In this document: piece after piece, positions 7,146-33,613 of the stretch
Numbering within the stretch: the first letter of the stretch is position 1
How the letters are laid out: each line of letters opens with the position of its first letter
IMG/VR virus record: IMGVR_UViG_3300025896_000041
Location: 1-45,496 of that record
Origin: a virus
Direction: 5' to 3' (one strand)
Length of the DNA stretch: 45,496 bases
Translations under genes and position numbers: made by a program
Notes under the pieces: model-generated
The model's input: only the letters and a program-made list of their open reading frames with translations
The model's database searches: none
Told to the model about the DNA's origin: nothing

Positions 7146-7197
7146 TGTTAGTCTCCTCCATCTTTTAGTCAGAGTTGAGTCTGATTCAAAGATCTTT

Positions 7198-7242
7198 AGA
7201 GTCAAAGCTTCCAGCAGTCTTGGAGGTTTTGACTCTTTTTTT
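7198..7242 (+). terminator. Intrinsic terminator just upstream of nrdJ
   Basis: AGAGTCAAA (7198-7206) pairs perfectly with TTTGACTCT (7228-7236). The inner part (CTTCCA/TTGGAG) can partly pair too, and seven T follow (7236-7242). This is a clear rho-independent terminator only 30 bases before the nrdJ start codon. Upstream GAGTC and TCAGA/TCTGA segments offer alternative pairings. Confidence 0.85.
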
Positions 7243-7272
7243 ATCCCGCAAACAAAGAGAGTCCAGCCAAAT

Positions 7273-9643: not shown

Positions 9644-9652
9644 ACCAGAACC

Positions 9653-9691
9653 ATGCGGCTCCGTCCGCTTCTGCGAACAACTAACCAAAGG
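9653..9691 (+). promoter_or_regulatory. Hairpin leader element, copy 1
   Basis: A GCGG/CCGC hairpin (9655-9668) around a CTCCGT loop is followed by TTCTGCGAA, then CTAACCAAAGG that serves as the ribosome site of the nuclease gene. Nearly the same layout recurs at 12867. The short TTCT after the stem would make a weak terminator at best. Confidence 0.5.
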
Positions 9692-9697
9692 TGCCCC

Positions 9698-10696: not shown

Positions 10697-10711
10697 CCAT
10701 GAAAGAAATAA

Positions 10712-12853
10712 ATGAAAACATTTGATGAGATGGAGTATCACCCAACCTCAGAAAAGCTAGTCAACATCCTGTGCAGCAAAACCCAGAACAGTAATCCACT
10801 GTTCTTCAGGGTACTGGTTGGCTACTACTTCAGCCTGGTGGCTTCCATGATGCGAACCACCATCGCTACACATGACCGCGGTGACATCCCTGTAAACATG
10901 TACGCACTGAATCTCAGTACGTCTGGCTCAGGCAAAGGCTTCTCGACAAACATCATCGAGAACCAAGTCATCAACCAGTTTCGCAGCAGGTTTCTGGAAG
11001 AAACGTTCCCGATCCTGGCAGACAACAACCTGCCAAAGCTTGCCATCAAGCGAGCCAATCGCAAGAGCACTGATCCGGATGAAGAACTCATCCGTGTTCA
11101 GAAGGAGTTCGAAGGTCTGGGCACTCTGGTGTTCAGCTTCGACTCAGGCACGCCTGCAGCGGTCAAGCAAATGCGCCACAAGCTGCTCATGGCTGATGCC
11201 GGTTCGATGAACCTGCAGATCGATGAGATCGGTTCCAACTTGGTTGGCAACATGGATGTGCTCGACACATTCATCGAGCTGTACGACATGGGCCTGATCA
11301 AGTCGAAGCTGATCAAGAACACTTCGGACAACGTTCGCAACGAAGAAATCATCGGTCGCACTCCGACCAACATGATGCTCTTCGGTACTCCTTCAAAGCT
11401 GCTCAATGGCAGCAAGACAGAAGAAGAGCTGTACTCGATGCTTGAGACTGGCTATGCCCGTCGATGCTTCTTTGGTTACAGCCGATCTTCCAACAACATC
11501 GAAGATCAAACGCCAGAAGAAATCTACGATCAGCTGACCAACAAAGACGCCAACACGTATTTGGAAGAGCTTTCAGATCGACTGGAGAACTTGGCTGACA
11601 TCATCAACGTCAACAAGCGTCTGGTGATCAGCAAGGAAACCAGTCTGCTGTTGATCGAGTACAAGCTCAAGTGCGAACGGGAAGCCAAGATTTATCCTGA
11701 GCATGAAGAGATGAAGAAGGCAGAGATCTCGCATCGCTACTTCAAAGCTCTGAAGCTCGCAGGCGCTTACGCTTTCATTGATGACTCTACTGAGTTGACT
11801 CAAGACCATCTTTATCAAGCCATCAAGCTTGCTGAAGAATCCGGTGAATCATTCAACCGATTGCTTACTCGAGATCGCGCTTACGTAAAGCTGGCCAAGT
11901 ACATCGCCACCTGCAAGCGTGATGTCACGCAAGCGGATCTGGTGGAAGACTTGCCGTTTTATCGTGGAGCCACAGGTCAGAAGTCAGAGATGCTGAGCTT
12001 GGCCATTGCCTATGGCTACAAGAACAACATCATCATCAAGAAGTCTTTCTCGGATGGCATCGAGTTCCTGCGCGGAGAAACGCTCAAGGAAACCGATCTA
12101 GCCAAGATGGTGATGAGCTACAGCACCGACATGACGACTGACTACCGTAATGAGACAGCGCCATTCGATCAGCTGCACAAGTTGGTTCAAGCACCTGGCA
12201 TGCATTGGGTGTCCCATCATCTCAATGGTGGCTACCGCAACGAAGAGAACTGCATTCCAGGCTTCAATCTGGTGGTGATCGACGTTGACGGTGGAGTGAA
12301 TCTCAGCACCGCAAAGCTTCTGCTCAAGAACTACAAGGCGCTGTACTACACGACCAAGCGACATACCGATACCGAGAATCGTTTCAGGATCATTCTGCCC
12401 ATCAACTACGAGTTGTCCATGGACGCCAAGGACTACAAGGAGTTCATGAGCAACATCTACGAATGGCTTCCATTCGAAGTGGATACCGCAACCAATCAGC
12501 GTGCACGTAAGTGGCTGACCCATCCAGGTCACTACGAGTACAACGAAGGTGAGGTAATGGATGCCCTGCCCTTCATTCCAAAAACATCCAAGAATGAAGA
12601 ACGCAAGGAATTGATGAACTCTCAGCAATCCATGGACAACCTGGAGCGTTGGGTCATCAACAACATCGGTGACGGCAATCGCAACAACATGCTGCTGCGC
12701 TTTGGAATGATCCTGCTGGATGCTGGTTTCGACTTTGAAACTATTCGCAGTCGAGTCATCAATCTGAACAACAAGATTGCAGACAAGCTGGATGAAGCAG
12801 AGATCATGAGCACCATCATGATCACAGTCGCAAAGGCCATCGCCAAGCGTTAA
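10712..12853 (+). CDS. Primase-helicase: N-terminal P-loop ATPase, C-terminal AEP-type primase
   Basis: This 713-residue protein has two parts. Residues about 1-330 form a P-loop ATPase like the DUF3987-type phage helicases: Walker A SGSGKG at 71-76, and an LQIDEIGS acidic segment that fits Walker B. Residues about 480-620 look like an archaeo-eukaryotic primase fold: catalytic D524-x-D526 in VVIDVDGG, and H551 in the KRHTDTENRFRIILP strand that supplies the conserved sxH. The region in between (320-480) is helical. It would unwind DNA and lay primers at the phage fork. No DNA polymerase gene is in this window, so the partner lies outside. Confidence 0.8.
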   Translation: MKTFDEMEYHPTSEKLVNILCSKTQNSNPLFFRVLVGYYFSLVASMMRTTIATHDRGDIPVNMYALNLSTSGSGKGFSTNIIENQVINQFRSRFLEETFPILADNNLPKLAIKRANRKSTDPDEELIRVQKEFEGLGTLVFSFDSGTPAAVKQMRHKLLMADAGSMNLQIDEIGSNLVGNMDVLDTFIELYDMGLIKSKLIKNTSDNVRNEEIIGRTPTNMMLFGTPSKLLNGSKTEEELYSMLETGYARRCFFGYSRSSNNIEDQTPEEIYDQLTNKDANTYLEELSDRLENLADIINVNKRLVISKETSLLLIEYKLKCEREAKIYPEHEEMKKAEISHRYFKALKLAGAYAFIDDSTELTQDHLYQAIKLAEESGESFNRLLTRDRAYVKLAKYIATCKRDVTQADLVEDLPFYRGATGQKSEMLSLAIAYGYKNNIIIKKSFSDGIEFLRGETLKETDLAKMVMSYSTDMTTDYRNETAPFDQLHKLVQAPGMHWVSHHLNGGYRNEENCIPGFNLVVIDVDGGVNLSTAKLLLKNYKALYYTTKRHTDTENRFRIILPINYELSMDAKDYKEFMSNIYEWLPFEVDTATNQRARKWLTHPGHYEYNEGEVMDALPFIPKTSKNEERKELMNSQQSMDNLERWVINNIGDGNRNNMLLRFGMILLDAGFDFETIRSRVINLNNKIADKLDEAEIMSTIMITVAKAIAKR

Positions 12854-17349: not shown

Positions 17350-20300
17350 TTACTTGATCAGCGCCATTGCTGACTTTACCGTAGCCAGTTCCTTCAAGGA
17401 ACCCAGATAGTCAAACGGACCGCTTCTGATCGGGTTGTTGCCAAGGTGATGGATAAACGAACTATCCAGAACGATGGGGCCCAAACTCATAAAGTTTCCA
17501 AGCAAGACTGTACCCAATACCCTTGCAGGATTCTCCTTGGCCAGATCGAGCAACGGCTTCTGGATACGCAGGAAGTACTTGGTAAACGCCGTGATGCCCA
17601 TGTCGTCCGTGTACTGCAGGGCTCTGTGCATCGGGATGTCGTAGTTCACGAAGTAGTCTGACGCTTTCTGAATTGCATCTGCTTTGCTAAGCGGGTTTTT
17701 TGCTTTCGTCGTCAAGTGCTGATACAGCGCATAGCGAGCCACGAAGTCAGACATCTGCGTAATCTTACTCAGCGTGTTGTACATCTGACCATCACGGGTC
17801 ATGTAGATCGCCTTGCCGATATTGACGATGTTTGGATTGAGCTTGCTCGTTGCTTTCTCAACCTTTTTGGTAAGTGCCGACTTGTAGCTGTACACATCGT
17901 CTTGACCGCTCAGGTCTTCGACAATCGTCGGCATCAAGCCAGCATCGATCAGTTCCTTCACCGGGTTACGGGCAAGCGCATCTTTCAAGCGAATGATCTC
18001 ACGCTTGATCTCTGCTTCCTTGCCTTGCGTGTAACCCGTGTCAAGCATACTCTGCAGACGGTTAAGTTCCTTGTCGTGCTTTTGATATGCAGTCGCTGCT
18101 TTCAAAGCCACCAGGCTGTGTTCTGCAATAGCCCAAGGAGACATGCCAGCAAGAAGCAGCAATGACTTGTTGCTGAAGATGTTGCCCAACATCACAGTAC
18201 CGGTTTTGACAACGATGATGTCTTTGGTTTCACGGACGATCTCTTGCCATGCACGCTCAGTGCGAGCCACGTACACAGCTGCTCGTTTGGCATAGCGTTC
18301 TGCTGCTCGATCATCCATGCCCAGCTTGTTGCTGGCGTAGGCAGTCAGCAGCCATTCCACTACACCCACGAAGATCTGCTCATAGGAGTTCAAGGACTTG
18401 AGTTCCTTGTTCTTTACAAACTCCATACCTAGATCTGCATACTGCTTGCGCTCTGCTTCTGCCCGCTTGAACATGTCAGCCATCGAAAACTTTCGATAAC
18501 CAAAGATCATATCGAGCGAGTCTGCACGAACCAACATGCCGTCTTTGCCCCAAATTTCTCTGGCATCGATCTGTGCTTGGCGCGGCATCAAATCCCAAAT
18601 TTCACGCAGTTCAGGATCTCCTGTGTTGGGTCCGATCAAAACGTAAGCTGCGCGGTTCATTGCGTAGTTGGTTTTGAACTCTTCATGCAAGGCTTCGATC
18701 ACAACCTTGTTCTGATCTTTGGTCGTTTCCTTGTCAAAGATCGAACCAGCAAGCACACCGAGTAGCTTGTCGAAATCGTTGTTACGCTCCAGCAGATTGT
18801 CCTTGGTCTTTTCCTTCATCAAATAACGCCAGTTCACGATCTCACCCTGCTCGTTGTACACAGGAGCCAGGTTGTTGCCGGTATCGCCCGACATATCACG
18901 ACCAGGATTATTAGTTTGCTTTAGCAAACCAAGCTTGTTGTTCGTGATCGTGGCTTGAATGATCGAGTTCTCAAGGCCAGTTGAAGTCGTAGCATCTAGA
19001 AAGCCATTGTGCTGCTCCGTGCCCTTGGCTCTCAGAGTCTGCGTGTGCATGGCGCCTGATACGCGAGGCGTGACACCTACACCTCTCAACGCAAACAGAA
19101 TCATCTGTTCGCCGTAAGGGTTGGCTCGATCAAGCATTAAATCATCAACGCGCTCATAGCCTTGATCAATCAGATCTTGTGCGCCTTGCTCCGTTGCCAA
19201 CTCCAGCTGAACGTATGGGTTGTACACCTCAGGCGTGTAGGCATGCTGCATCAGAATCGGATTGCCCTTGAACAGCTTTTCAAGGGATTCCTTTTCAAAA
19301 GCCTTTTGCAATGCCATGACGTACTCAATGCCGTTGCCATCATTGCGATTGTTTTCAGTACGCATGACTTCTTTGGCACGCATCTGTTGTTCAACCCGTG
19401 TAGCTCGTAGTGCATACAGCGAAACCAGCATCTTGATTGAAGGCTCAGCAGCGACTGCTGCTTCTTCAGTGATGCGACTCGAGTACGTTTTGTCGCCAAG
19501 CATGCGAGCAATGATGTGCGAGTTGTTCATCAGGAAGCCAACCACTTCACCATTGGCCAGGTGCGATCCCAACACGTTGGCTTGAAGGATGTAGTTGTTC
19601 TTCATCGGACCAGTCAGCTGGCCTTCGTACTTCGTGATTGCAGCTTTGAGCGCAGTCGGGTTGTTCAGCAAGTCCTCAATTTCTGCCAGCGAGTAGTCCA
19701 CGGTGAGGTTATGCAAGCCAGTACGAAGGAATACCTTGGTAATGCTTTCCTTGTCTGTCCGGCTCAGGTCTTTACCATCGTTGGTAAACGACTTGCGTGA
19801 GAACTCCGAAGTCTGATCGATGACCGACTTGCGGGTAGATTCAAGCTTCTTGGTTGCACGCAGCACCAGCTGAAACAGTTTGTTGTGGCCGGTGACTTCC
19901 TTGAGCATGCTCATTGCAATGCTTTGGCGGTTCTTAACGTGCGCAGCATGGAAAGCCTGAATGCCTTCCAGTGCAGCCTCGACACGTTCACCTGCAATCG
20001 TGCGAGCCAAAGAACCTGCAGTACGAACGATGCTGAGGCTGCTGTCTCGCACCAAGTCAGAACTGGCAATCTTGACGATGCCGTCTTTGATGTTGGTCAC
20101 AACCTTGGTGACACCCTCTTCTACCGGGCCAAGGTAATCCGTGGCCTGCAGTCTTGCAGCAATCTGTGTGCGACGCTTGGCTTCGATGTCCACCAGCTGT
20201 CCGACCAGGATCTCCAGCTTTGCGTCTGCGTCTTGTCCTTGAAATGTATGCGTGATCTTCTCGTTGAAGAAGTTCAAGATCTTTTCAAAGATATTCTGCA

Positions 20301-23300
20301 GACGTTCTGTGAATGACTCACCTTCTCCATACTTGCTGGTATCTCGATCTGTTGCAATCTTCAGCAGGCTGTTGAACTTTTGGCTACCCAGACCCATGGC
20401 CGCAAAGCGTGCAATGTAATCAGAGCGACCATCGCTGCCAGCTTCCAGCTTGAACACAAAGTCGTAGTCTTCCTGCGAATCGAAGTCCGAAGGTTTTAGC
20501 GTCTTCTGAGCAAAGGTGTAGAGCTTGTACAGTTCCCGGTAGGCTGTACGTGCTTGAGGCTCGTTTGCTTCCAGTGCCGCACGTACTGTGGCTTCGATCT
20601 GCTGCATCGCAAAGTCTTCCTGCGCGCTGCCGGCAAACCCCGAACCAACGATGCTCGATGCAAACGGTGCCGCCCCTGTCTCCATGGCTTTCAGCCATGT
20701 CGCCAGTGGGTTGCCGGCTTCCGTCTTACGCATGGCCTGAGCAAAGGCGCCATACGGTCCGTGGAGCTTTTCTACGATGCTACCTAACAGGTTGCTAAGG
20801 TGCTTGCTGAATGCAGGGCTCACAGCGCCTGTATCCAAGCCTTGGAAGATGTCTTGCGTCGTGTACTGCTCGATAGCCTGCTGGGTTTCCTGAGCCAGGT
20901 TCAAACCCGTGTTTTCTTTGGGTTTGTTTTGTGCAGCTTCAGCAAACAAGCCAGACACATTGGCAAACAGCACCGCCACTCCGTTGTTGACGTTCTCGTC
21001 AGGATTCTTGAACAGCAACTGACTGACTGCTTTGATAAACGCTTCCAAGCCGGTCATCAGCTTGTTCTTCTTGGTCTTCGATTCCATGCTGATCTTGCTC
21101 AGCACAGCACGTTGAAACTCCAGATTGGTCATACCCCAAGTCACGAACTCTTGAACATTCTCAAGAGCTGCAGAGAATTGCGTCAGTCCATTTTGCTTTG
21201 CAAATTCTTGGGCTTTGATTCGCAGTGCGTCGAGCTCAGCAACCAGTTCAGCAGCTGCTGCACTTGGGTTGTCGATAGTCTGGGCAATTGCTGCGTGAAT
21301 CAGTTCATGCAGCAAAGTCTCAGCAGTCAAACCAGAGTTGACAAACTCAGGGCTGAGAACGTAGATCTCTTCTTTACCATTCTTGAGAACGTACCAACCA
21401 CGCGCACTTGTAGTCGGTTTCTCAAGCGGCATGTCAGCAGACGTTTCAGGCGTCACGTACTTGATTGACAGATTCGGGCTGACTACCCGACTAATCAAAC
21501 CAAGGATCTTGCGATTGATGCCATTCAGGCGCCCTGGCGCAGCCAGCAGCTTGATGACATCTGCTGCACTGGCATTTGGATTGGCATCAAAGAACTCCAC
21601 CAGATCAGTGTCGCTCTTGATAGTCGGTGTTCCTAATTTGCCAAACGCACTTTCGACAGTGGCAATGACAGGCGATTCTTGAGGAGTCGGTACGTACTCC
21701 GTGCTGAAGGATTCAGCAATCTGCTGTAGAGCATCCGTTTCTTGCTCCGTTAGATCGCTGGTAAGGTCAGCACGCATTGCTTGAGCAGCTGCTCGATCTT
21801 GCTCAGTAACTTCGTAGTTACCGTCTTGCATTGCATATTGGTCGATGGCTTGCATCTGACCTAGCACTTCCAGACGAACACTGTCTGCACGAAAAGCCAT
21901 GCTTCTGGCGCTAGACAGCATGTCGCCCAACAAGGTAGCCGCACTGGTTCCCTCTTTGATAGAAATGTCGGCAATGACATCCATGACTGCATTGCGTACT
22001 TCGATTGGCGTGTTTTCTTTAGAAAGCAGCTGAGCCAATCCTCTGATAGTGCGCGACAACGCATCAGCCATTTCTGTGGCCGGCGAGTAGTTCAACATCG
22101 CGTTCCAGGTAGACTGGTTTAAGCTACGTGCCACATCCCCAAGGATGCCAACACCAGCACCGCGTGCATCGTGAACGTTCAAGCTGTCGCCCGGATTCTC
22201 AACACCATGAGAGATGGCGCTGTCTGTCGAGTGAGCACTCATCGGCAGCATGGCTACACCAGGCTCGGACGCTACGACCTCAACGCCGTTGACATTGGAC
22301 GATGCAGCGTTGTTGTCTGTGAAGTGTGATCCAAACTTGATCTCGCTCTGGTAGGTACTTCGAGTACTAAGCTTGCGCTCGGACTTCGACATGTTGATAC
22401 CAGACTTCAAAGACTTGCTTTCCTTCGACATCAGCGTGTGCAGAATCGGAGTCAATGCACTCAGACGCTTACGCAACTCTGCTTCCTGTTTTGCAGTCAG
22501 GTCATGCAGCGGTGCTTTTGTTGTCGGGTTGACTTCAATATCTCCTGAAGCCACAAGCTCTGCCAGATACGCATCTTTTAAACTGGTGTATGCCGCGTTG
22601 TAGATTTCAAACGCTGTCTTGGCAGATTTGTTGAATGACTCTCTACGCTCAATGAACGTCTTGAACTCTGTTTCCATCGTGCTCTGAACTGTCTTGCCGA
22701 TGGTGTCCTTGAAGCTCTTCTTTAGAGCTTTGATCTGGCCAGGATTAAATTCAAACTCCATCAATCTTTCGACAGACATTGCAGGAATGGTTGCCCCTTT
22801 ACCCATGATCAGCAACGTGTTGATGTGTCCAATCACGGTTCGTACATCGACCTTGCCAGCAGCTACGTCTTCAATGCCCGCATAGATCGATTCGACAAAA
22901 CCATTTGCCATGCTATCGACTGCAGTAATGACCGATGAACCAAACACCATTGCAGTCAACGGTGTCTTGATGATGTTTCTGCCTGCTTTCGTAACCGAAC
23001 CATCTTTGTCAGCAAGCGTTCCGGTGAATGCATAAATAGCATTCAACGTAGCACCCAGTGCAGGAGTCTTGTTCAACAAAGACTGAACAGCTTGAGTCAT
23101 CGACAACGCAGTCTGTTCGTACAGATCTCGATGACCAATTGCTTCGCGCCACAGGTTGTACTGGCTGTGTTTATTGCCCTGCTCGTAGAAACCGCCACGA
23201 TTCAGCAGCTTGAACAAATCTTCTGCAGTCTCTGCCGCACCCAGCATTAAATGACTGAGCATTGGTCCGTTGGTGACGCCATCAACCTCGCCCATCATTT

Positions 23301-26300
23301 GGACAGTAAATTCATTCTTTCCATCCAACCTGGCTTGTGCTTCATGAGCCAATGCCATCAACGCATCGAGCGAATGGAAGTTTTGGCCACCGGCTTTGAC
23401 ACCTGCGACCAAGATCTTTTCTTCTGCTGGCGTGATGCCACCTTCGAACACCGACTTGCGCAGCACTTCGACTGCAGCTTTGATTTCTGGTGCGCCGACG
23501 TAGTTGTCATAACCAGCCAACGATGTAGCGTTGCTTTGCTTGTCAGTCTTGACTCCAAGACCTTCGAGCACGCGCAGACGGAAGTTGTCCATCTGAGCAT
23601 CGTTATTCATGTCGAGCTTGGTTTCCCAAGCTTGGCGGTAAAGCATGAAGCGGTGAATCTTGCTGGTCTGTGGATTGATTAAATTAGTGGCGATACCAAC
23701 TCGTTGTTGCTTCCACACCGAGTGTTCAAAATACAGCGGCGCTTCCATGTCAGCCATGCCGGTGACAAACATCATGAACCGTTCAAGCTCACGCTTGAGC
23801 CCGTCATTCTTGGCTTGTCGTCCCAGTCTGTTGGATACGTGAACACCTTGCTCGCTAACTTCTTCGACACCAGCAATTGCTAGTGCAGTGTCCTCACCTA
23901 GTTGAGAGATCAGTTGCACCATGTCTTGACGTACAAAACTTGGTACCGAGTTCTCTTGTTCAATCACCTTGGCAAGAGTCGCAGGCACTCCTTGGCTAGT
24001 ATTGCGCGTGGTTTGCTGAGTGAATGGCACAGGCTCATAGCTTGGTTCTTTTAGTGCAGACTCAACTGAGAACAATTTGTCCAGCACACCTTGACTACCA
24101 GTGATTGCTTTGACGATCTCTTTGACTTGTTGAGTAGTTTCAAACTCAGCATCTCGAGCCAAACGCAAGAACTGGAACTTGGCGTTGGCTTGGGTTTTTT
24201 CGCTCTTGGTCAGCCCAGCCATGACTTCACCAGTCACGGTAGTACGCTCAAGGATTCCCTGATCCATCAGCAGCTTCATGATGTGGGCGCCAATTGCGCT
24301 CTCAAGCTTTGGCATCAGATCGCGTGGGGCGTCTTGCTTGGCTTTCAAACCAAGAGCTTGAATGGCGCGTTTACCTAAAGCGTTGATGACAATGTTTTGT
24401 CTTGCGCCAACCATGCCAAGAGTATTGCGTTCTTCCTGAGTAACAAGCTCGGTTTCCGGACGATCCAGAATGATGTTGATTTCTTCGTCCGTATTGAATG
24501 CTGCACGGGATGCAACTTCTGCAATCCAGCTGAATGCAGCGTAGCTCATTGCAGTCTTCAGGTTCTCTTCGATGTCTTTCTTGCCGTTCGTTTCTACGAC
24601 AAAGAAATTCATCATGTCTTCAAACCAGAACTCTTGCTTTTTGTTGCCAAGGTTCTTGGTAATGTTGCTTTGCCACGCTTTAGCTTTTGCTTTGAAAACA
24701 CTGATCGCTTCGGATTGTTGGGAGCTGAGCGAATCAATGCTCAGAAAATCCATGACCGATTTTGCAGACTGACTTAGAAAATCCTTGACTGCCACCAGTG
24801 GACGCCCAGATGCATCAGTTGCTTTGTCTTCGGACTGAACAAAGAAATCGGCAATCAAATTGCGAAGCTGATACCTAGTCCCCTCCGGGGAGGTTTGTTG
24901 GAGGGCTGATAGCGTTCCAGGCTCCACAACAAAAGCCATGTCTTCTGTAGGATCTGCTGTCTCAGTACTTTCCACTACAGGCTGCTCAGCTTCTGTAGTT
25001 GCAGCAGTTTGTGGAACAGTCTCAGCAGCCGGGGCTGTAGCCTCTTCAGTTGACTGGTTTTGAACTTCAACTGCAGTAGCTGCTTGAGTCTGTTCAGTAT
25101 TCGCAGAAGAGGCGGGAGCCTCTTCAGCAACTGCAGTAGTCGAAGGCTCTTGGACTACTCCGGATCCGGTTCCTTCAGCGGTAGTGGCTGTTTCAGTTGC
25201 TCCACTGCTTTGAGGTTCTGCAGGAGCTGCTGCCTGTCGTGCCGGTTGCTCCGACTGGCTCGATGATCCTTCGCTCGGTACTTCTTGTTGCTGTGATACG
25301 TCCTGGACATTGGCTGCTCCCTGCTGCGTGGCAGACTGCGTGTTGAACTTCACCTCGTAGGCGGATTGCAGTTCCGTTGCTGCAGCGGTAATAGCGGTTG
25401 CTTCGTTCTCGATGCGTGGAGCCAACTTGAACGTAAAGTTGTTGACCAGCACGCCACCCTCGGCACGGAGGGCATCTCGACCTTCTTTTGTCATGCCATC
25501 AGCCGTTTCCGTGAACCATCCACGGTTACCGTCGCTGCGTACCTGACGCCAGACAGCATCCTTGCGATAGAGCTCGAATGCGTCAGCAACGGCTTTGGCT
25601 TTGGCCAGATGGTCTTGCTTAAACTTGTTCAGCAGCTCCAGCTTTTTGTCAGCCAGCGCCTGATTGCCTGCTGCCAGTGCCGCCGTGATCTGTGCGCGGT
25701 ACTGCTCAATGCCCACGTTCTTGATTGCGCTGCCGGCAGGCGAGCCGTACAGAATCTCGTCGGACACGTTGTTCTTGGACTTGATTGCGTTCGCTGCAAT
25801 CCGTGCCGCCGAGAACGACCTCAGGTACGCACGCTGAGGCTCCGTCAGGGCGTTGCCAGCGTTGTTGGCAAGCTCGGTAGCTGTCTTGGCATCCAGAAGC
25901 TCTGGCGAGGCCATAGACAGGTTGATAATGCGGTTCGCAGCTACCTGTGAGGCCGCGGTGGTTTCAGGCGTGCTGGAATCAGCTGGGACGTTGAGCGCCG
26001 CCAGGTCTGCAGCAAGATCAGTCTTGCCCGCTACCGTCTGGTTGAACTCCGTGATGGTTTTGTTTGCGTCGGCCAGCTGCTTGTCGATGCTGGCCAACTG
26101 ATCCTTGTAACCTTTGATCTCGGCACTCGAATCTCGAAGTGCCATCGTTTGAAGTTCTTCTTCAAAGAACGCAATGCCATCGGTGTATTCAGCAGCAGTC
26201 TTGACATCCGCAGGATCAAGATTTGCCAGACGCTCTTTCAGCGTAGCCAGCTGTGCTTGCAGCCCACTTGGAGTGGTGCGATCCAGGCTGCTTTGAATGT

Positions 26301-27759
26301 CGATTCGTTGAGTTTCGAGGTCGGAGATGATCTTCGAGGCTTGCTCGAGGTTGGCTTGTCTGGCCTCAGGCGTTGTGGTGTCCAGCTTGCTGTTTTCATG
26401 CAAGGCATGGACTGCAGTGTCCGGAGAATACGCTTTGCTTTTTGGATCCAGCAAAGCAGTAACATCACCGGTCTGGATTGCAGTTTTCAGTACGTCTGTC
26501 TTGTTTGTCTGGTCTTTGCGAGCCAGCAGCTTCTCAGGAGTTACGCCAGATAGCTCAGCAAGCGTTCTACCGCCACCACTGAGCGTTGCTCCTGATACGC
26601 CACCAATGACCGAACCAGTAAAGATATCCGTGGCAGTGACATCCTTGCCAGTGATATTGCCTTCCATGTAAGTCTGGTAACCCTCGGTAGGCGCCTCAGA
26701 CGCAAAGCCAGCACCTGCTGCTTTACCGATGTTCTTCAGGCTTTCCTTGAATCCGGTGCGTGTTGCGTCAACAGCACCTTCTGCAGTCTTGCGACCCAGC
26801 TTGGTGACACCCAAACCAACAACGTCACTGCCCTGCTCCGCAGCTGCAAGGCTTGCGGACTTCATGGCCATCTCAACCATCAGTTCTTTGGGAGGAAGTT
26901 GCCCGTTGTTTTCCTTGGCGTAGTTCTCGATGAACTGCTGGTAGTTGTCTGCAGCGTAGCCAATGTTGCTGGCCAACATGGCTGCTTTGCCCGGAGCACC
27001 CGCAAGACCGACAAACAGTTGCGGAGCGTTCTCAAGAACAAACTCCCTCACGGCAGCAGGATTAGACAGGACTGCTGAACCAGCGTTGTAGAAGATCTTT
27101 GCCAGACCTTCTACGGCATTGACCGAACCACCAAGTACATCGCCATTCGATGCTGCATCAACGCCAGCAGATAGCTGAGCCCAAGGCTCTTGAAATCCTT
27201 TCGACAGATCCTTGGTGAGATTGTTGCGATTGGTTGGATCGACAATCTTGTCGAGATTGAAGAAATCCGTGACTTGGCGAGAAGTCTTTCGATTGGCTTC
27301 CGCATCCATAAAGCCCTGACGAATAGTCTTGTCAGAACCAGGATTACGTCGATCCAGAATCAAATTGTCGATAGGCGTTCCTTGCCCAGACTTGATCCTG
27401 TTCCACGCATTGGTGTCTTCCGCAGACTGACCCATGTCAGCTGTGGTTGCCATCAGGCCAGGAACTACTGACCCAACTTGACCAGCAAGTCTGGACGTAC
27501 CAGCAACTAAGGATGCAGCGTCATTGACCAGATTGCTTGGTACTTCCCCAGACGGCAATCCAAGACGCCCAGCCCAGGACTCGCTTACGATCTTGTCATT
27601 GGCAGCTTTGGTTGCCATGAACTGCTCAGCAGCATCACGATGCTCTTGCAGATCGACCATCTTTGCTTTGGATGCGGCTTCCAGATCAGCAAGTTTGCTG
27701 TCTACATTACTAGTTGCCGCTTTAGAAGCAAAATAAGCATCGAGGTCGAAAGATGGCAT
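17350..27759 (-). CDS. N4-type virion RNA polymerase (vRNAP), giant ejected protein
   Basis: The 3469-residue size is close to N4 vRNAP (about 3500). T7/N4 single-subunit RNAP motifs occur in order. R1353 lies in QQRVGI...NPQTSK (T7 WRGRVY...NPQ). Motif A is EVDGVTNG with D1493. Motif B is R1594-xxx-K1598-x7-F1606-G1607. Motif C is VHDARG with D1864. The polymerase core spans about 1200-1950. Before it, residues about 805-940 are a low-complexity Gln/Ala/Glu/Thr linker. After it, HELIH (2151-2155) is a zincin-like motif, followed by NVQEF. The last 1200 residues are helical and carry a hydrophobic stretch. The protein would be packaged, ejected, and transcribe early genes with SSB. Motif B has Phe where T7 has Tyr639. 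A 19-bp dyad abuts the start codon. Confidence 0.9.
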   Translation of the reverse strand: MPSFDLDAYFASKAATSNVDSKLADLEAASKAKMVDLQEHRDAAEQFMATKAANDKIVSESWAGRLGLPSGEVPSNLVNDAASLVAGTSRLAGQVGSVVPGLMATTADMGQSAEDTNAWNRIKSGQGTPIDNLILDRRNPGSDKTIRQGFMDAEANRKTSRQVTDFFNLDKIVDPTNRNNLTKDLSKGFQEPWAQLSAGVDAASNGDVLGGSVNAVEGLAKIFYNAGSAVLSNPAAVREFVLENAPQLFVGLAGAPGKAAMLASNIGYAADNYQQFIENYAKENNGQLPPKELMVEMAMKSASLAAAEQGSDVVGLGVTKLGRKTAEGAVDATRTGFKESLKNIGKAAGAGFASEAPTEGYQTYMEGNITGKDVTATDIFTGSVIGGVSGATLSGGGRTLAELSGVTPEKLLARKDQTNKTDVLKTAIQTGDVTALLDPKSKAYSPDTAVHALHENSKLDTTTPEARQANLEQASKIISDLETQRIDIQSSLDRTTPSGLQAQLATLKERLANLDPADVKTAAEYTDGIAFFEEELQTMALRDSSAEIKGYKDQLASIDKQLADANKTITEFNQTVAGKTDLAADLAALNVPADSSTPETTAASQVAANRIINLSMASPELLDAKTATELANNAGNALTEPQRAYLRSFSAARIAANAIKSKNNVSDEILYGSPAGSAIKNVGIEQYRAQITAALAAGNQALADKKLELLNKFKQDHLAKAKAVADAFELYRKDAVWRQVRSDGNRGWFTETADGMTKEGRDALRAEGGVLVNNFTFKLAPRIENEATAITAAATELQSAYEVKFNTQSATQQGAANVQDVSQQQEVPSEGSSSQSEQPARQAAAPAEPQSSGATETATTAEGTGSGVVQEPSTTAVAEEAPASSANTEQTQAATAVEVQNQSTEEATAPAAETVPQTAATTEAEQPVVESTETADPTEDMAFVVEPGTLSALQQTSPEGTRYQLRNLIADFFVQSEDKATDASGRPLVAVKDFLSQSAKSVMDFLSIDSLSSQQSEAISVFKAKAKAWQSNITKNLGNKKQEFWFEDMMNFFVVETNGKKDIEENLKTAMSYAAFSWIAEVASRAAFNTDEEINIILDRPETELVTQEERNTLGMVGARQNIVINALGKRAIQALGLKAKQDAPRDLMPKLESAIGAHIMKLLMDQGILERTTVTGEVMAGLTKSEKTQANAKFQFLRLARDAEFETTQQVKEIVKAITGSQGVLDKLFSVESALKEPSYEPVPFTQQTTRNTSQGVPATLAKVIEQENSVPSFVRQDMVQLISQLGEDTALAIAGVEEVSEQGVHVSNRLGRQAKNDGLKRELERFMMFVTGMADMEAPLYFEHSVWKQQRVGIATNLINPQTSKIHRFMLYRQAWETKLDMNNDAQMDNFRLRVLEGLGVKTDKQSNATSLAGYDNYVGAPEIKAAVEVLRKSVFEGGITPAEEKILVAGVKAGGQNFHSLDALMALAHEAQARLDGKNEFTVQMMGEVDGVTNGPMLSHLMLGAAETAEDLFKLLNRGGFYEQGNKHSQYNLWREAIGHRDLYEQTALSMTQAVQSLLNKTPALGATLNAIYAFTGTLADKDGSVTKAGRNIIKTPLTAMVFGSSVITAVDSMANGFVESIYAGIEDVAAGKVDVRTVIGHINTLLIMGKGATIPAMSVERLMEFEFNPGQIKALKKSFKDTIGKTVQSTMETEFKTFIERRESFNKSAKTAFEIYNAAYTSLKDAYLAELVASGDIEVNPTTKAPLHDLTAKQEAELRKRLSALTPILHTLMSKESKSLKSGINMSKSERKLSTRSTYQSEIKFGSHFTDNNAASSNVNGVEVVASEPGVAMLPMSAHSTDSAISHGVENPGDSLNVHDARGAGVGILGDVARSLNQSTWNAMLNYSPATEMADALSRTIRGLAQLLSKENTPIEVRNAVMDVIADISIKEGTSAATLLGDMLSSARSMAFRADSVRLEVLGQMQAIDQYAMQDGNYEVTEQDRAAAQAMRADLTSDLTEQETDALQQIAESFSTEYVPTPQESPVIATVESAFGKLGTPTIKSDTDLVEFFDANPNASAADVIKLLAAPGRLNGINRKILGLISRVVSPNLSIKYVTPETSADMPLEKPTTSARGWYVLKNGKEEIYVLSPEFVNSGLTAETLLHELIHAAIAQTIDNPSAAAAELVAELDALRIKAQEFAKQNGLTQFSAALENVQEFVTWGMTNLEFQRAVLSKISMESKTKKNKLMTGLEAFIKAVSQLLFKNPDENVNNGVAVLFANVSGLFAEAAQNKPKENTGLNLAQETQQAIEQYTTQDIFQGLDTGAVSPAFSKHLSNLLGSIVEKLHGPYGAFAQAMRKTEAGNPLATWLKAMETGAAPFASSIVGSGFAGSAQEDFAMQQIEATVRAALEANEPQARTAYRELYKLYTFAQKTLKPSDFDSQEDYDFVFKLEAGSDGRSDYIARFAAMGLGSQKFNSLLKIATDRDTSKYGEGESFTERLQNIFEKILNFFNEKITHTFQGQDADAKLEILVGQLVDIEAKRRTQIAARLQATDYLGPVEEGVTKVVTNIKDGIVKIASSDLVRDSSLSIVRTAGSLARTIAGERVEAALEGIQAFHAAHVKNRQSIAMSMLKEVTGHNKLFQLVLRATKKLESTRKSVIDQTSEFSRKSFTNDGKDLSRTDKESITKVFLRTGLHNLTVDYSLAEIEDLLNNPTALKAAITKYEGQLTGPMKNNYILQANVLGSHLANGEVVGFLMNNSHIIARMLGDKTYSSRITEEAAVAAEPSIKMLVSLYALRATRVEQQMRAKEVMRTENNRNDGNGIEYVMALQKAFEKESLEKLFKGNPILMQHAYTPEVYNPYVQLELATEQGAQDLIDQGYERVDDLMLDRANPYGEQMILFALRGVGVTPRVSGAMHTQTLRAKGTEQHNGFLDATTSTGLENSIIQATITNNKLGLLKQTNNPGRDMSGDTGNNLAPVYNEQGEIVNWRYLMKEKTKDNLLERNNDFDKLLGVLAGSIFDKETTKDQNKVVIEALHEEFKTNYAMNRAAYVLIGPNTGDPELREIWDLMPRQAQIDAREIWGKDGMLVRADSLDMIFGYRKFSMADMFKRAEAERKQYADLGMEFVKNKELKSLNSYEQIFVGVVEWLLTAYASNKLGMDDRAAERYAKRAAVYVARTERAWQEIVRETKDIIVVKTGTVMLGNIFSNKSLLLLAGMSPWAIAEHSLVALKAATAYQKHDKELNRLQSMLDTGYTQGKEAEIKREIIRLKDALARNPVKELIDAGLMPTIVEDLSGQDDVYSYKSALTKKVEKATSKLNPNIVNIGKAIYMTRDGQMYNTLSKITQMSDFVARYALYQHLTTKAKNPLSKADAIQKASDYFVNYDIPMHRALQYTDDMGITAFTKYFLRIQKPLLDLAKENPARVLGTVLLGNFMSLGPIVLDSSFIHHLGNNPIRSGPFDYLGSLKELATVKSAMALIK

Positions 27760-27839: not shown

Positions 27840-30773
27840 TTACCTCCACGGCATGTGGCTATATGTTTCTGGGTCAATAGGATTGACTCCGCCCCATAAT
27901 CCCACTCTGTTTTTCTTGGCAGTAGCCTGCAATGCAGCAAGAGTTGGATCTTTGGAGTATCGCCCATAAAGCCAAGCCATACCCTGTCGAATCATTTCCG
28001 TACTGACATCCTTGCCTTCAATCTCGATCTGACATGATGCACGACCATACTTTGCATTGCCTGCACTTGCTTCTTTGGATACTCGCAGTGTGACTTCCTT
28101 ATTCAGAATCATCTCTTCTAAAGTCTTCTTGGCTTCATTCCCATAAGGTTGTGCCGGCTTGTTGCTGTACTTTGGATGTGCGACTTCAGGAGCATTGATA
28201 TTATCAATACGACAGTTGATCGTTGATCCATCAGCACGCTTTACATATGCACCGTCACCATCTGAAACTCCTGTGACTTTCCCAGGCTCAGCAGCAAACG
28301 TAACTACTGTTTTAGTCTTTGGTCCGGCGCTTTGAACTGAAGGATCAGCTTTAACAACAGTGACTGGCTGACTCCATTGAACGTCCGGAACTTTAGTAGG
28401 CGTTTTAGAAGGTTCAGCTGCACCTGTTGCTAGATTCAATGCGACATGCGTAGTTTCAGGTTTGACGACTTTGGTTGTGGTCTGTCCTTTAGCATCGATT
28501 GTGGGTACTGAGACTGGCGCAGGTGCTTCGAATGCACCCAAAGACTTGGTAGGCGTAGGTGAGTTACCAAGCCCATCCATAGGAAGCGAACTGGGTGACT
28601 GTCCCGGAACAGGAGCAGTCACCGCAGGCGCAGCATCACTTACCGGAGACTTTTTTTTTAAGTCCTCACGCAAGGCTTTTTGTTCCAACTCAAACGCAGC
28701 ACGACGGGCTTTAAGATCTGGTGTGTTCACACTAGCTTGACGACGCTGTTGAATACCATCCGAGTAAGGAGTCAGACTACTTAGAAGACCGTTGTCTGGA
28801 ATGTACGGAATGTTTGCACCAAACGCATTAGGAACGCGAAGCAGAGTGTTAGCAGCACCCATTACTCCACGTACAGGCAAAGTAAAAATATCGTTGAAAG
28901 CTGCACTTACATCTTCAGCACCACGACCTGCAGTTTTAACTGCACCAACAATTGCTTTTCTATCTTCTTTATCTCGCGCAGCTATTTCCTTATCCAGATA
29001 CTTTTGGACTTCAGGAGATACGGCTTTACGAACGCCAGCATTAACCTCGTCCTGCTCAAGTGCAGCTTGCTTGCCCAGCAATGCACGCTCTAGTCGTGCC
29101 GCAGCAGCTGCAGGAGTCTCTGGTTTTGGTGCATCCTTTACAGGAATAACAGCAGGCTTGTTTGGTGCAGGAACAGCAGCGCCAGGAGCAACAACAGCAG
29201 CTGGACTTGATGCAGGCGCTGCACCCATGCGACCGATTACTTGATCAACGTATTGACCAACGGTTGGATCGTTAGGACGTTCCTTGTTTTTCCAATCTCG
29301 GTTGATGCTGCCATCTTTGTTGACCGCACCTTCACCACCATAGTAAGCCGCAGCTACTTTTGCAGGATCACCATCGTATTTGTTATTCAGGTAATCAACC
29401 CATTTGAAACCAGCATCTTTGTTATGTTCAGGATTCGTGTGCTCATAGCTTTTAGGAATGAGTCCAAGTCTTTTCATATCAGCAAACGTGGTGTCCTTGA
29501 CTTGCATCGGACCTGTTACGCCCTGACTGTTTGTCTTGGATGTATCAGCAGTACCTCTGCCAGATTCCTGACCAAAGATTGCATTGGCAATTCCTCTGGA
29601 ACCACCAGTAGCAGCTGCACTGGCTGCACGATCAATTGCTGAAACATTGCCCGCAGGAGCAGCGCCAGCAGGATTACGATTTGCGGATTGCAACGTAGCT
29701 CGCAAGCCACCCAAGTTTTCGCGTGCAGCAGTCTCTGCAGCAACGCGAGTAGCTTCACGTTGAACGTAAGCAGGACTCTTTTTGAGAGAAGCCAACAGTT
29801 CTTCGGACGTAGGGGGCTTGTCACCAAACCACTTGTTCCACAAACCATCCGGCTTTACCGAACCAACAGCAATGCTTACCTTCTCTTCATCAGTCAAATA
29901 CTGATTGGAAGGATCCGCAGTAATGCGTGCAAGTTGTTGAGCAACTTTAAAACGAGTTGCCTCATCAGGAACCATTGCTTTAAGAATGTCCCCAACTTCA
30001 GACTTTCCACCGCCACTACCACCACTCACGCCTGCACCACCACTATTTGGAGCAGCAGTTGCACCCAATGCTTTAGTAGCAAGGGTGACTTGTTCCATCA
30101 GCTTTGCAATACCTTCATTATGAAGTTTGGTTTGAGCATCCTGTCGAGCTAAAGGAATATCTGTGGCTTGTGCGTTGTTCAGGTTCGAATTAGCAACTCC
30201 ATTTGCAATGGTTTGATTGCCTGTTCGCTGAGCAAGATCAAACGTTTTATTTCCTTGATCAACAGTACGGGCCTGCTGAGCAAGCATCCAGCCTTGAGGA
30301 AGATTTGGGTTGTCTTTCAAGAAAGCTGCTTTTTCTTCTGGCGTACCTGTCTCCATAATCATGCGACCTTGGGCCATCACAGGCTCGAGTGCTGTGTCTC
30401 TAACCTTTGTCGTGTAGTCGTTACCCGCCAAGACTTGATTCTGCAATGCTGTACGGCGTGCATCTTGCAAGCCAAGCACTTCACCACGAACGTTAGGCGC
30501 CAAAGCCTGAAGCCGCTGAGCCAGCATCTCTTGCACGCCTGGTGCATTGAGTTGTTCAGGCGTGGTGTAGCCCTGCATCAGCGTCTGGTAGTCCAGCTTT
30601 GCATTCTGCTGTTCAGTAACTGTGTTTGCTGCGTCAGTTGCCTCACGCTGCTTAAGGAGATTGCCAAGGGTGTCGAACGAAGAGTTAATGCTTCGTTGAG
30701 CCGACTCCATTGGACGAAGCGAATCAGCAAGATTCGGTGCGTTTACGTTCTGCCAGGTGATTGGGTTAGCCAT
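27840..30773 (-). CDS. Internal virion protein: lytic transglycosylase + SNase-like domain
   Basis: The 977-residue protein has three parts. Residues 1-380 are helical, Gln/Ala-rich. A lytic transglycosylase domain at about 392-490 carries catalytic E403 in FGQESGRG, then GVTGPMQVK and AAYYGGEGAV. After Ala/Pro-rich linkers, a staphylococcal-nuclease-like domain covers about 828-970: SDGDG (D838, D840), R855, APE with E863, YGR with R911, and a final GLWGG. The Ca-binding Asp40 position is Asn860, so nuclease activity is uncertain. Transglycosylase domains in internal virion proteins cut peptidoglycan as DNA enters the cell. The start overlaps the previous stop (TAATG). It lies directly before the vRNAP gene, so both probably travel together from the particle. 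Confidence 0.88.
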   Translation of the reverse strand: MANPITWQNVNAPNLADSLRPMESAQRSINSSFDTLGNLLKQREATDAANTVTEQQNAKLDYQTLMQGYTTPEQLNAPGVQEMLAQRLQALAPNVRGEVLGLQDARRTALQNQVLAGNDYTTKVRDTALEPVMAQGRMIMETGTPEEKAAFLKDNPNLPQGWMLAQQARTVDQGNKTFDLAQRTGNQTIANGVANSNLNNAQATDIPLARQDAQTKLHNEGIAKLMEQVTLATKALGATAAPNSGGAGVSGGSGGGKSEVGDILKAMVPDEATRFKVAQQLARITADPSNQYLTDEEKVSIAVGSVKPDGLWNKWFGDKPPTSEELLASLKKSPAYVQREATRVAAETAARENLGGLRATLQSANRNPAGAAPAGNVSAIDRAASAAATGGSRGIANAIFGQESGRGTADTSKTNSQGVTGPMQVKDTTFADMKRLGLIPKSYEHTNPEHNKDAGFKWVDYLNNKYDGDPAKVAAAYYGGEGAVNKDGSINRDWKNKERPNDPTVGQYVDQVIGRMGAAPASSPAAVVAPGAAVPAPNKPAVIPVKDAPKPETPAAAAARLERALLGKQAALEQDEVNAGVRKAVSPEVQKYLDKEIAARDKEDRKAIVGAVKTAGRGAEDVSAAFNDIFTLPVRGVMGAANTLLRVPNAFGANIPYIPDNGLLSSLTPYSDGIQQRRQASVNTPDLKARRAAFELEQKALREDLKKKSPVSDAAPAVTAPVPGQSPSSLPMDGLGNSPTPTKSLGAFEAPAPVSVPTIDAKGQTTTKVVKPETTHVALNLATGAAEPSKTPTKVPDVQWSQPVTVVKADPSVQSAGPKTKTVVTFAAEPGKVTGVSDGDGAYVKRADGSTINCRIDNINAPEVAHPKYSNKPAQPYGNEAKKTLEEMILNKEVTLRVSKEASAGNAKYGRASCQIEIEGKDVSTEMIRQGMAWLYGRYSKDPTLAALQATAKKNRVGLWGGVNPIDPETYSHMPWR

Positions 30774-31339
30774 TATCGAACTCCATATTGAGCCATGTAG
30801 TCCGCTGCTGCCATGGAATCAGGTCGCTCAATGTTGCGACGAACTTGACGATCATTAAGTGCTGCGTTGGTCGTTCGTTTCTGGTTCTCGTAGTTCTTGA
30901 GAGCCATGTCTTTCTGGAAGTTGAACGAGTCTTTGGCAAGGCCATACTGCTGCATGCCTAGATAACCATTGAACAGTGCAGAGCCGGCACCTAGAGCCAA
31001 GCCACCCCAGCCATCTGTCTTGATTCCTTTTGCGTCAGTGGAACCTACAAGACCAGTACCTTTGGCCCAGTTACCTAACTGGGACCAAATACTTGGGTCT
31101 ACCGTACCGGTACCACCAAGAGAAGTATTTGGAAGCGAGCCCATGATTCCAGCGCCACCACCCATTCCGCCTAGATCACCCATCTGAGGCGCACCCCAGT
31201 TGGAGCCCATTGAATAGTTGCCACCGCTGAAGCCTTCAGCAGTAGTCATCTGAGAGTTGATGTCTGGATAAAGGTTTGGTGGAGCCACCAAGCCGTTGCC
31301 ACTTACGTTCCCATATGTTGGTAGTTTCATTCCATTCAT
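30773..31339 (-). CDS. Small Gly-rich virion protein, probably internal or ejected (188 aa)
   Basis: The 188-residue protein has a Gly/Asn/Met-rich N-terminal half (about 1-90) and a C-terminal helical half (GLALGAGSALFNGYLGMQQYGLAKDSFNFQKDMALKN..) with a mildly hydrophobic start and a long amphipathic helix. The layout resembles the small internal core protein of T7-like phages (gp14), but I see no sequence proof. ATGA and TAATG overlaps place it in one translation unit with the transmembrane protein and the transglycosylase. Confidence 0.7.
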   Translation of the reverse strand: MNGMKLPTYGNVSGNGLVAPPNLYPDINSQMTTAEGFSGGNYSMGSNWGAPQMGDLGGMGGGAGIMGSLPNTSLGGTGTVDPSIWSQLGNWAKGTGLVGSTDAKGIKTDGWGGLALGAGSALFNGYLGMQQYGLAKDSFNFQKDMALKNYENQKRTTNAALNDRQVRRNIERPDSMAAADYMAQYGVR

Positions 31340-33591
31340 ACTGCACCCCCTAATGAATCATTTATCGTTGGCAATGTAAGCGCAATATCCACATAAGAGG
31401 AAACAGCTTCCAAGCCTAAGATGCCAATATTACCGGAATGAACAGTACGGTTGTAATAATCGTTTGGCTTTTCCCCAAATATAATAAAGGGGTTCAATGC
31501 CACCGTGTCATCCAGCAAATCCTTTGCCTTATCCAGCAACGCTGTCTGCTTTTCAAGAAACAAACTAAAGTCACTGGCTTCATTTTTAAGGTCAACATAC
31601 ATTGACCTAAGAATTTCACTTTGCAAACCATTTACAAGCATGATCAGGTCACCGGCATATGGAACTTTTGCCAGCGACCCCATGTTGAATCCTTGATAAC
31701 CAACGTAAATAATGGCAATGATTGCAGCAATAGTTGCAATGTCTTTGCCAAACACTTTGACAAACAGCTTCAATGTCAATTGAACCAACAATCCAATTGC
31801 CATATCAATAAGTATCAATAAAAGCACAAGCGTTACTTGCGATACACCAAGCGCCAGTGCAAGCGCCTGACCGCCATCAGAGAAGCCAGTAGAAATCTCC
31901 CAGACAACTGCAATAACAATAAGAAAGATGCTGAACCATTCTTGCTGATACCACTTCACTTCCGTGACCACTCGGCTGTTGAAAACAAAGTGCAATGAGC
32001 GAGTGTACAAAGGCTCCTGATCAAGAATCGAATATTTATCCGTAATCGACCGATCAAGTGGAACCAGAAGAATGTTATCTGCTTCATCACCAGTAGCGGT
32101 GTACTGCCCATAGATGTGATAAACCATCGTCAGCTTATTGACTCGTAGCTCTTCGTACAAACCCTCAGTCAACTGATGTCTGTAGATATGTGCTTTCTCT
32201 TTTTGAATCTTTATAGAGCTTGGGCCATTGAACTGCTGCACAGGTACTTCAAGCTCATATGTCTCCATTGCGCTGGAATAGGAATCAACAGCCCCAATGC
32301 TTCCAGCAACGTACTTTTTGTAGATGCCGTCGTTGGTCAAAGCCATCTTGAACTTCTTGTCTTGGATGACAATCGATGACTTGGGCGCTACGTTTGCCTG
32401 CTTAAAAAGCGACAGCTGAGAAAGCCTGATTCCAGCAGAGATTGGTGAGGAAGCCTTGCTTTCCTCATCTTCATAAAGATTATTGAAGAAATCAAATAGG
32501 TATCGCTGTTCTATTTCGTTCTCTGTATTAGCTGGAACTGCCATGATCAGCATGGCTTGCTCTACTTGCTTGATATCCGGATTGCTATCAATGGCTTCAG
32601 CCACTGCGTCATAGTCCAGTCCAATGATCTTGGTCAATCTCTTGGACGTTTTGTATTGCTCAGACGTTTTGTCTTTGATCAGCGAGCTTTTTGCATATCT
32701 AAAATACGCAAAAGGAAAATACGTTCCTGACTCTGTTGTTTGTGTTTCGAAGTTGGCATCCAGGTCTGCGTAGTCACCTGAGCCCACGCGATACATCCAA
32801 TACTTTGTATCGCCATTGACGACATACTTGGCGTGGTAGTACTCGCCGGTATCAAAGTAATCAACCAGCGACACAATCATCGAGGCATCGAATGAAGTCG
32901 TCGTAACGACAGCTGCTCCATTGACTGTCGTGGTCTTGATTGTTTGCCAGGTGTAGTCGATACGCACATGCTCGACTTCAAGTGCTGGATCAACATTGAT
33001 TGGGGATGCGTTGGTCATTCCACCTAATGCGCCGCCATTGAATGTGCGATTTGGTGTGTAGCCTGCGTTTGCTGGTGTCCCCCAAGGAGTCAACGCAGCG
33101 AGAGTTCGCAATTTAAGACTCTCTTCAGGAATGACCACCACCATATCTTTGAGATAAACCGGACTACCTTTCTCTTGGCTCAGCGCCGCAATTTCGTTAG
33201 TGTCTTCGTTGTATCCATAGACATCGACAAGCTTGACCCAACCAATATGCAATGAATTAGGAACACCAAAATGACAGTATTCGACTGAAGCTTTTGAGCC
33301 ATGCAATGCAGACAAGATTGCCGTGACCTGATCTACACCACGGGTTGAGGACAGGCGTTGACCTGATGGAAGGCCATGAACGTACTTGTCTCGACCATAC
33401 CGGTAGTACCTGTCAGCACGGATACCAATGCTGGCAACCACTTCTTCCATGATGTATGACGGAGTATCACCATCCTGAAACAAGGCTTTCAATACGCCGG
33501 TTTTGACGCTGTCTGGGATTCTTTTATCTTCAACAAGTCGAGATACGGACGTACCAACTGTCGTCACATAATCGCTACTGAATAATCCCAT
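31336..33591 (-). CDS. Large virion protein with C-terminal membrane helices (751 aa)
   Basis: ATG 33591 is chosen for its GGGGGGA ribosome site; a TTG four codons upstream extends the frame. Residues 1-540 look globular and beta-rich. Residues about 550-635 are strongly hydrophobic with two to three predicted helices (WFSIFLIVIAVVWEIS, VTLVLLLILIDMAIGLLVQL, IATIAAIIAIIYVGY). The C-terminus is helical. I recall the MGLFSSxxVTTVGTSV start from proteins of other large podophages, annotated only as structural. With the neighbouring internal proteins it may form a trans-envelope channel for DNA entry; this is inference. Confidence 0.75.
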   Translation of the reverse strand: MGLFSSDYVTTVGTSVSRLVEDKRIPDSVKTGVLKALFQDGDTPSYIMEEVVASIGIRADRYYRYGRDKYVHGLPSGQRLSSTRGVDQVTAILSALHGSKASVEYCHFGVPNSLHIGWVKLVDVYGYNEDTNEIAALSQEKGSPVYLKDMVVVIPEESLKLRTLAALTPWGTPANAGYTPNRTFNGGALGGMTNASPINVDPALEVEHVRIDYTWQTIKTTTVNGAAVVTTTSFDASMIVSLVDYFDTGEYYHAKYVVNGDTKYWMYRVGSGDYADLDANFETQTTESGTYFPFAYFRYAKSSLIKDKTSEQYKTSKRLTKIIGLDYDAVAEAIDSNPDIKQVEQAMLIMAVPANTENEIEQRYLFDFFNNLYEDEESKASSPISAGIRLSQLSLFKQANVAPKSSIVIQDKKFKMALTNDGIYKKYVAGSIGAVDSYSSAMETYELEVPVQQFNGPSSIKIQKEKAHIYRHQLTEGLYEELRVNKLTMVYHIYGQYTATGDEADNILLVPLDRSITDKYSILDQEPLYTRSLHFVFNSRVVTEVKWYQQEWFSIFLIVIAVVWEISTGFSDGGQALALALGVSQVTLVLLLILIDMAIGLLVQLTLKLFVKVFGKDIATIAAIIAIIYVGYQGFNMGSLAKVPYAGDLIMLVNGLQSEILRSMYVDLKNEASDFSLFLEKQTALLDKAKDLLDDTVALNPFIIFGEKPNDYYNRTVHSGNIGILGLEAVSSYVDIALTLPTINDSLGGAV

Positions 33592-33613
33592 ACGTCCCCC
33601 CAACCGGCTTTAT

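Follow-up and report, generated by a model that had tools for sequence, protein, structure and literature searches.

A predicted ejection-tunnel protein of an N4-like phage carrying a lytic transglycosylase domain and, beyond a conserved slippery junction, a staphylococcal nuclease-like domain

How would a phage protein bearing both a wall-cutting and a nuclease-like domain be delivered into the cell envelope, and would every copy of it carry both activities? These questions are raised by a 977-amino-acid (aa) open reading frame (ORF) on the minus strand, at positions 27840 to 30773, of a 45,496-nucleotide IMG/VR virus record, the whole of which is referred to below as the window. The first-pass annotation had delimited this chain exactly and described it as an internal virion protein joining a lytic transglycosylase to a staphylococcal nuclease (SNase)-like domain, but it overlooked a tunnel-protein domain in the first third, a slippery run of A's and the relatives of the gene. 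Taking these into account, we consider that the gene probably encodes a tunnel subunit that is ejected and bears a wall-cutting domain; frameshifting or transcriptional slippage would give rise to two forms of it, one with a nuclease tail and one lacking it.

The window is a fragment of an N4-like phage. Its minus strand carries, in order, the terminase, portal and major head protein genes, gp55-, gp54-, gp53- and gp52-like genes, the 977-aa gene and the virion RNA polymerase gene. This is the order found in N4 and LIT1, where gp51 or gp72 holds the position of the 977-aa gene. The gp53-like gene (positions 31336 to 33603, minus strand; tail plug in N4) was assigned by its match to phrog_2220 (E 1e-130), and the 3469-aa virion RNA polymerase (17350 to 27759, minus strand; gp50 in N4) by its match to phrog_2206 (E 0). 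For its part, the gp52-like gene (30773 to 31339, minus strand) is, from its position and PHROG matches, a candidate for the outer-membrane pore ejection protein. On the plus strand, at 7141 to 9165, this N4-like phage also carries a gene for a class II (B12-dependent) ribonucleotide reductase.

To compare the protein with its counterparts, 58 gp51-region proteins from IMG/VR and annotated phages were used, comprising 56 gp51-position or neighbouring ORFs and two split SNase ORFs. A leave-one-out HMM built from 24 other gp51 proteins matched residues 1 to 349 of the window protein with an E value of 4e-38; 200 shuffles gave a best value of 170. Similarly, a profile of 25 gp51 N-termini, from which litunaviruses were excluded, found DEV gp72 (8vxq; E 4e-50) and the N4 66 kDa protein (11mn; E 4e-5) in the PDB. 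Thus, residues 1 to 375 (29649 to 30773, minus strand), which are mostly helical in the AlphaFold2 (AF2) model and open with the family motif MANPITWQNVNAP, can be assigned as the tunnel-protein domain; a motif of the form MA-x-PITWRNV opens nearly all gp51 proteins. A Foldseek search with the AF2 monomer of the tunnel part gave no PDB match and was uninformative, the subunit being expected to be extended.

DEV gp72 and N4 gp51 share with the window protein a homologous first third, the same N-terminal motif and the same place in the operon, with the gp52-like gene on one side and the virion RNA polymerase gene on the other, and differ from it in length (521 and 644 aa, respectively, versus 977 aa) and in lacking the added transglycosylase and SNase domains. 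The assignment of the 977-aa protein, by sequence, as a Schitoviridae gp51/gp72 periplasmic-tunnel ejection protein is therefore well supported. DEV gp72 lies inside the virion as a dodecamer around the portal, and the recombinant protein forms a nonameric tube with gp73 (PMC10925440); N4 gp51 has been placed beside the portal, is absent from empty particles and makes channels in bilayers (PMC12633501). The earlier proposal of an internal, ejected protein is supported by the homology of its N-terminal third to DEV gp72, and the tunnel domain explains how such a protein would be ejected. In the course of these comparisons (LIT1, L004, and L086 against L055, 9671 to 11236), LIT1 gp72 was found to be annotated as 476 aa, without the MAQEITWRN N-terminus; its close relatives are of 521 aa and have this N-terminus, and the true LIT1 start probably lies 45 codons upstream of the annotated one.

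A Pfam scan of the 977-aa protein found SLT and SNase as the only domains, both above the curated cut-offs. The SLT lytic transglycosylase domain occupies residues 376 to 530 (29184 to 29648, minus strand), with the match to PF01464 at residues 393 to 495 (E 1.8e-11; 44 bits versus a cut-off of 21.3). In agreement with the transglycosylase site proposed at first, the catalytic Glu is E403, in GQESG, and is followed by GPMQV and the AYN-like motif AAYYGG, as judged from the Pfam range and from the alignment with the SLT domain of contig L002. The AF2 confidence around E403 was low (pLDDT below 50), and the nearest solved relative was T7 gp16 (full-sequence E 0.003). The domain is 55% identical to that of L002, a podovirus unrelated to the window phage, where it is part of an 869-aa protein (9380 to 11989) adjoining a 1982-aa ORF.

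Hydrolases recur at the gp51 position: SLT in Acinetobacter phage Presley and in L078, phage lysozyme in L095 and glucosaminidase in L101. This recurrence and the likeness to L002 are consistent with wall-cutting modules being swapped among ejection cassettes, and the SLT module of the window may possibly have been transferred in this way between its cassette and that of L002. The wall-cutting proteins at this position include a lysozyme protein at L095:9310-11682 and SLT proteins at L078:7675-9753 and L008:7903-9702. Presley gp80, whose deposited name is 'lytic tail fiber protein' (PMC3853045), is like the window protein a gp51-position protein with an SLT domain, but it is of 599 aa and has neither SNase nor slip junction. 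T7 gp16 and the gp15-like proteins of K1E and K1-5 also carry a wall-cutting domain on an ejection protein (PMC8954989); unlike the window protein, they are unrelated to the N4-type tunnel, and no nuclease domain is mentioned for them in PMC8954989. No Pfam enzymatic domain was found in N4 gp51 or LIT1 gp72, and a lysozyme-like remnant suspected by eye in N4 gp51 was unsupported by Pfam, PHROGs and PDB searches. The N4 ejection proteins appear, according to a preprint, to be without peptidoglycan hydrolysis, a hydrolase being assumed to act in trans (PMC12633501).

The SNase domain comprises residues 829 to 965 (27879 to 28289, minus strand), with the match to PF00565 at residues 855 to 960 (E 2.6e-20; 73.3 bits versus a cut-off of 21). 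With phmmer, residues 828 to 964 aligned with residues 9 to 145 of staphylococcal nuclease (E 3e-10), which placed D838/D840, R855, E863 and R911 at D19/D21, R35, E43 and R87, as had been predicted, and N860 at D40. In the AF2 model of the whole chain, the C-terminal domain is an OB-type SNase with a core pLDDT of about 90, consisting of five beta strands (829 to 836, 841 to 846, 851 to 856, 893 to 900 and 912 to 918) and three helices (877 to 889, 923 to 929 and 943 to 955). Foldseek matched this model to solved SNases (E 4e-9; TM 0.76, normalised to the target), so the fold suggested by the first-pass annotation was borne out by modelling. The domain thus has in common with the staphylococcal nuclease family its fold and most active-site residues, and differs in the change of Asp40 to Asn, in DGDG for DGDT and in being carried on a virion tunnel protein. 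From sequence and model, it is a member of the SNase fold and, as regards catalysis, a putative nuclease.

The Asn that had been pointed out at the calcium-ligand position proved to be a true outlier: Asp is found there in 35 of 36 loci having an SNase of the same motif pattern, and the sole Asn is that of this phage. The calcium site is thus incomplete, with the equivalents of Asp21, R35, E43 and R87 kept. Since N860 replaces the calcium ligand Asp40, the SNase activity is probably reduced in this phage, and together with DGDG the substitution may mean that the SNase is inactive here. The annotated phage collection held no close relatives of the module, only isolated SNases in unrelated phages. 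Its best PHROG match was to phrog_8809, a family of uncharacterised function, at about positions 1072 to 1245 of the 2317 of the profile; since the match lies in mid-profile, the module may also form part of a giant protein of phages elsewhere.

These substitutions raise the possibility, which we find doubtful but worth weighing, that the SNase part binds nucleic acid instead of cutting it, as an OB-fold anchor that would hold the incoming DNA or RNA polymerase complex where the tunnel ends at the inner membrane. N860 and DGDG would be in accordance with such a role, and a nuclease beside the phage's own DNA would be risky. However, the calcium and phosphate residues D838, D840, R855, E863 and R911 are kept, and the tunnel model places the phage DNA within the tube. 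Moreover, the Asp at position 40 is retained by the SNases of the four related lineages described below (L030, L022/L102, L101 and L159), although that of L101 has no clear counterpart to the Y of the YGR/YDR motif.

Between the two enzymatic domains lie a predicted helical spacer (residues 554 to 709; 28647 to 29114, minus strand) and a Pro-rich linker (residues 709 to 828; 28290 to 28649, minus strand). Neither the annotated phage collection nor the loci retrieved contained a relative of the spacer. The linker is homologous to a -1-frame segment of L030 that starts at a slippery heptamer; by tblastn, window residues 707 to 829 are 46% identical to L030 from nucleotide 10969.

Module searches revealed the same SNase module after the tunnel part in four further lineages. 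In L101 (807 aa; tunnel, glucosaminidase and SNase) and L159 (654 aa; tunnel and SNase), it is fused in frame. In L030 and L022/L102, the tunnel genes encode 392 and 418 aa, respectively, without a hydrolase, and the SNase ORF comes next in the -1 frame, crossing the stop of the tunnel gene. The L101 glucosaminidase is non-homologous to the window SLT, and among the loci found, SLT and SNase share one chain only in this phage. Thus, of the fusion described at first, the attachment of an SNase to a tunnel protein is real and recurrent, given the in-frame fusions in L101 and L159, and the particular pair with SLT does not recur; in L030 and L022/L102 the SNase lies in a separate frame, which counts in part against the fusion as first described. 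In a gp53 tree that took in four SNase-bearing phages (L159, found later, was left out), the window, L022, L030 and L101 fell within one clade of 16 with a support of 99. The scattering of SNase-bearing phages among clade members without the module points to its frequent gain and loss. As a separate observation, the gp51 genes of L022/L103 and L102 are unrelated at the nucleotide level over most of their length, but share about 96% identity from a point roughly 500 nt upstream of the slip site onward, which places a recombination point inside the tunnel gene.

The module junction of the window gene is marked by a run of nine A's (28651 to 28659, minus strand) in the context TTA AAA AAA AAG, codons 705 to 708, which contains in-phase A_AAA_AAA and A_AAA_AAG heptamers. 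Past the run, the -1 frame stops after four codons and the +1 frame after two. Immediately 3' of it (28580 to 28649, minus strand), 70 nt are predicted to form an RNA structure of -30.1 kcal/mol (z -3.87), and none of 200 shuffles folded as well. An in-phase A_AAA_AAR heptamer was present at the module junction in all five SNase-bearing lineages, located between the SLT and SNase parts in the window and before the glucosaminidase and SNase in L101, so that both the same module on a tunnel protein and the same junction are shared with the four other lineages. Anywhere in the gene, such a heptamer occurred in 4 of 55 other gp51-region genes, and its background was 1e-4 per codon (421 ORFs). One further case is the 727-codon ORF of L024, with an in-phase A_AAA_AAR heptamer two codons before its stop, which is possibly another frameshift site.

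The arrangement around the heptamer differed between the two types of gene. In the in-frame versions (window, L101 and L159), A-runs of 9, 9 and 11, respectively, are followed within four codons by stops in both other frames, a situation met at 4.8% of random codon positions, which gives about 1e-4 for three of three fusions if these are independent; since the lineages are related and belong to one clade, a single slip site may be ancestral to all of them, and the probabilities cannot be treated as fully independent. In the -1-frame versions (L030 and L022/L102), the heptamers are A_AAA_AAA and A_AAA_AAG, the 0-frame stop comes two codons on, and the -1 frame stays open for 253 and 241 codons, with hairpins 3 to 6 nt downstream of the heptamer (z -3.3 and -2.4). 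RNA structure was weak in L101 and L159 (z -0.7 to -1.3). The junctions thus combine an in-phase X_XXY_YYZ heptamer with a nearby stop ending the product, and their conservation is well supported.

The pattern proposed here, of one gene and two products, is known from bacterial dnaX, whose long and short products arise by frameshifting on A_AAA_AAG or by slippage on nine A's with stops in both other frames, in either orientation: a 0-frame long form with a -1 shift to the short form, or the reverse (PMC5009743). The dnaX proteins (tau/gamma) are unrelated to the window protein and serve another purpose, and the window case is deduced from sequence only. No description of an SNase or of frameshifting in Schitoviridae ejection genes was found in the open-licence papers searched.

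It is unlikely, in our judgement, that the A-run is a chance homopolymer within a single 977-aa fusion, with all subunits carrying SLT and SNase, and that the L030 and L022 SNases are made separately from an overlapping GTG. The long frame is indeed uninterrupted in the window, L101 and L159, and in L030 and L022 a GTG start overlapping the gp51 stop (GTGA) could permit separate translation of the SNase; start/stop overlaps of this type are common in translationally coupled genes. A chance run is nevertheless difficult to reconcile with a slip site at the junction in five of five lineages, against a background of 1e-4 per codon, and with immediate stops in both alternative frames in three of three fusions. 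As for separate translation, no Shine-Dalgarno sequence is visible ahead of the L030 and L022 GTGs, and the homology of the window linker runs through the -1 frame from the L030 heptamer, although this lies only about four residues upstream of the GTG. Of the readings that account for every lineage, two subunit lengths are the simplest.

That the fusion reflects a mistake in sequencing or assembly, the true genome having 8 or 10 A's and an out-of-frame SNase as in L030, is very improbable: the junction is a nine-A homopolymer in which a change of a single base would lead to the arrangement seen in L030, but the same nine A's occur in a second contig, L101 and L159 are likewise fused in frame, and even in an 8- or 10-A genome the slip mechanism would still give the fused protein. 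The second contig, IMG/VR 3300006805_000381 (L001/L100), is 99.87% identical to the window over 13.8 kb and thus represents a different strain or assembly; its 18 substitutions all lie outside the 977-aa gene, the copy of which shows zero differences. An assembly chimera is ruled out by this contig together with the in-frame fusions in L101 and L159. Two other classifications were considered for the protein. PADLOC, consulted for a defence-system reading, gave no match for P0001 and a weak, SNase-only match for P0006, and the class of polyvalent proteins (multidomain proteins that enter with the DNA and typically bear MPTase, ART or similar effector domains; PMC5512222) does not apply, Pfam giving SLT and SNase only.

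From these comparisons we infer ejection, two products and a role for the nuclease, as follows. The gp51/gp72-type tunnel protein, enlarged by two enzymatic modules, would be packed in the virion and exit before the virion RNA polymerase does. A tube reaching from the outer membrane to the inner one would then be built of several copies, as shown for DEV gp72 and expected here by homology, and the SLT domain after the tunnel part would cut the peptidoglycan so that the tube could cross the wall. Because of the slippery A-run between the SLT and SNase parts, only some copies probably carry the SNase: the run and the downstream RNA structure would yield mixed subunits, some of 977 aa with the SNase and others of about 712 aa ending just past the run, the latter consisting of tunnel, SLT and spacer. 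In the related -1-frame phages, the same two products would be made in reverse, the short form in frame and the long form by -1 frameshifting. In DEV, the N-terminus is located at the outer membrane; given this topology, the SNase at the C-terminus of some subunits would be carried towards the inner membrane and lie outside the tube, where it might cut or bind nucleic acid, either periplasmic or at the inner face.

Much more tentatively, we suggest that this N4-like subfamily may use frameshifting or transcriptional slippage to adjust the dose of a nuclease delivered to the envelope. The tunnel would then mix plain or wall-cutting subunits with fewer nuclease-tipped ones, and the nuclease might attack periplasmic nucleic acid of the host or of competitors, the phage DNA being protected inside the tube. 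Such a machine would be an enzymatic ejectosome under decoding control. No dose-controlled enzymatic activity in an ejection machine was found in the open-licence papers searched. A caution for annotation follows from the -1-frame phages, as pipelines will assign the SNase of L030 and L022 to a gene of its own and would overlook the proposed fused virion protein.

For the biology of N4-like phages, the findings bear on how the cell wall is crossed. In the window phage, as in several relatives, a hydrolase is part of the tunnel protein itself, its type varying among several unrelated ones, and the question of wall crossing thereby becomes directly testable. The SNase module and its conserved slip junction suggest, in addition, that the ejection machine may deliver a second, dose-controlled enzymatic activity.
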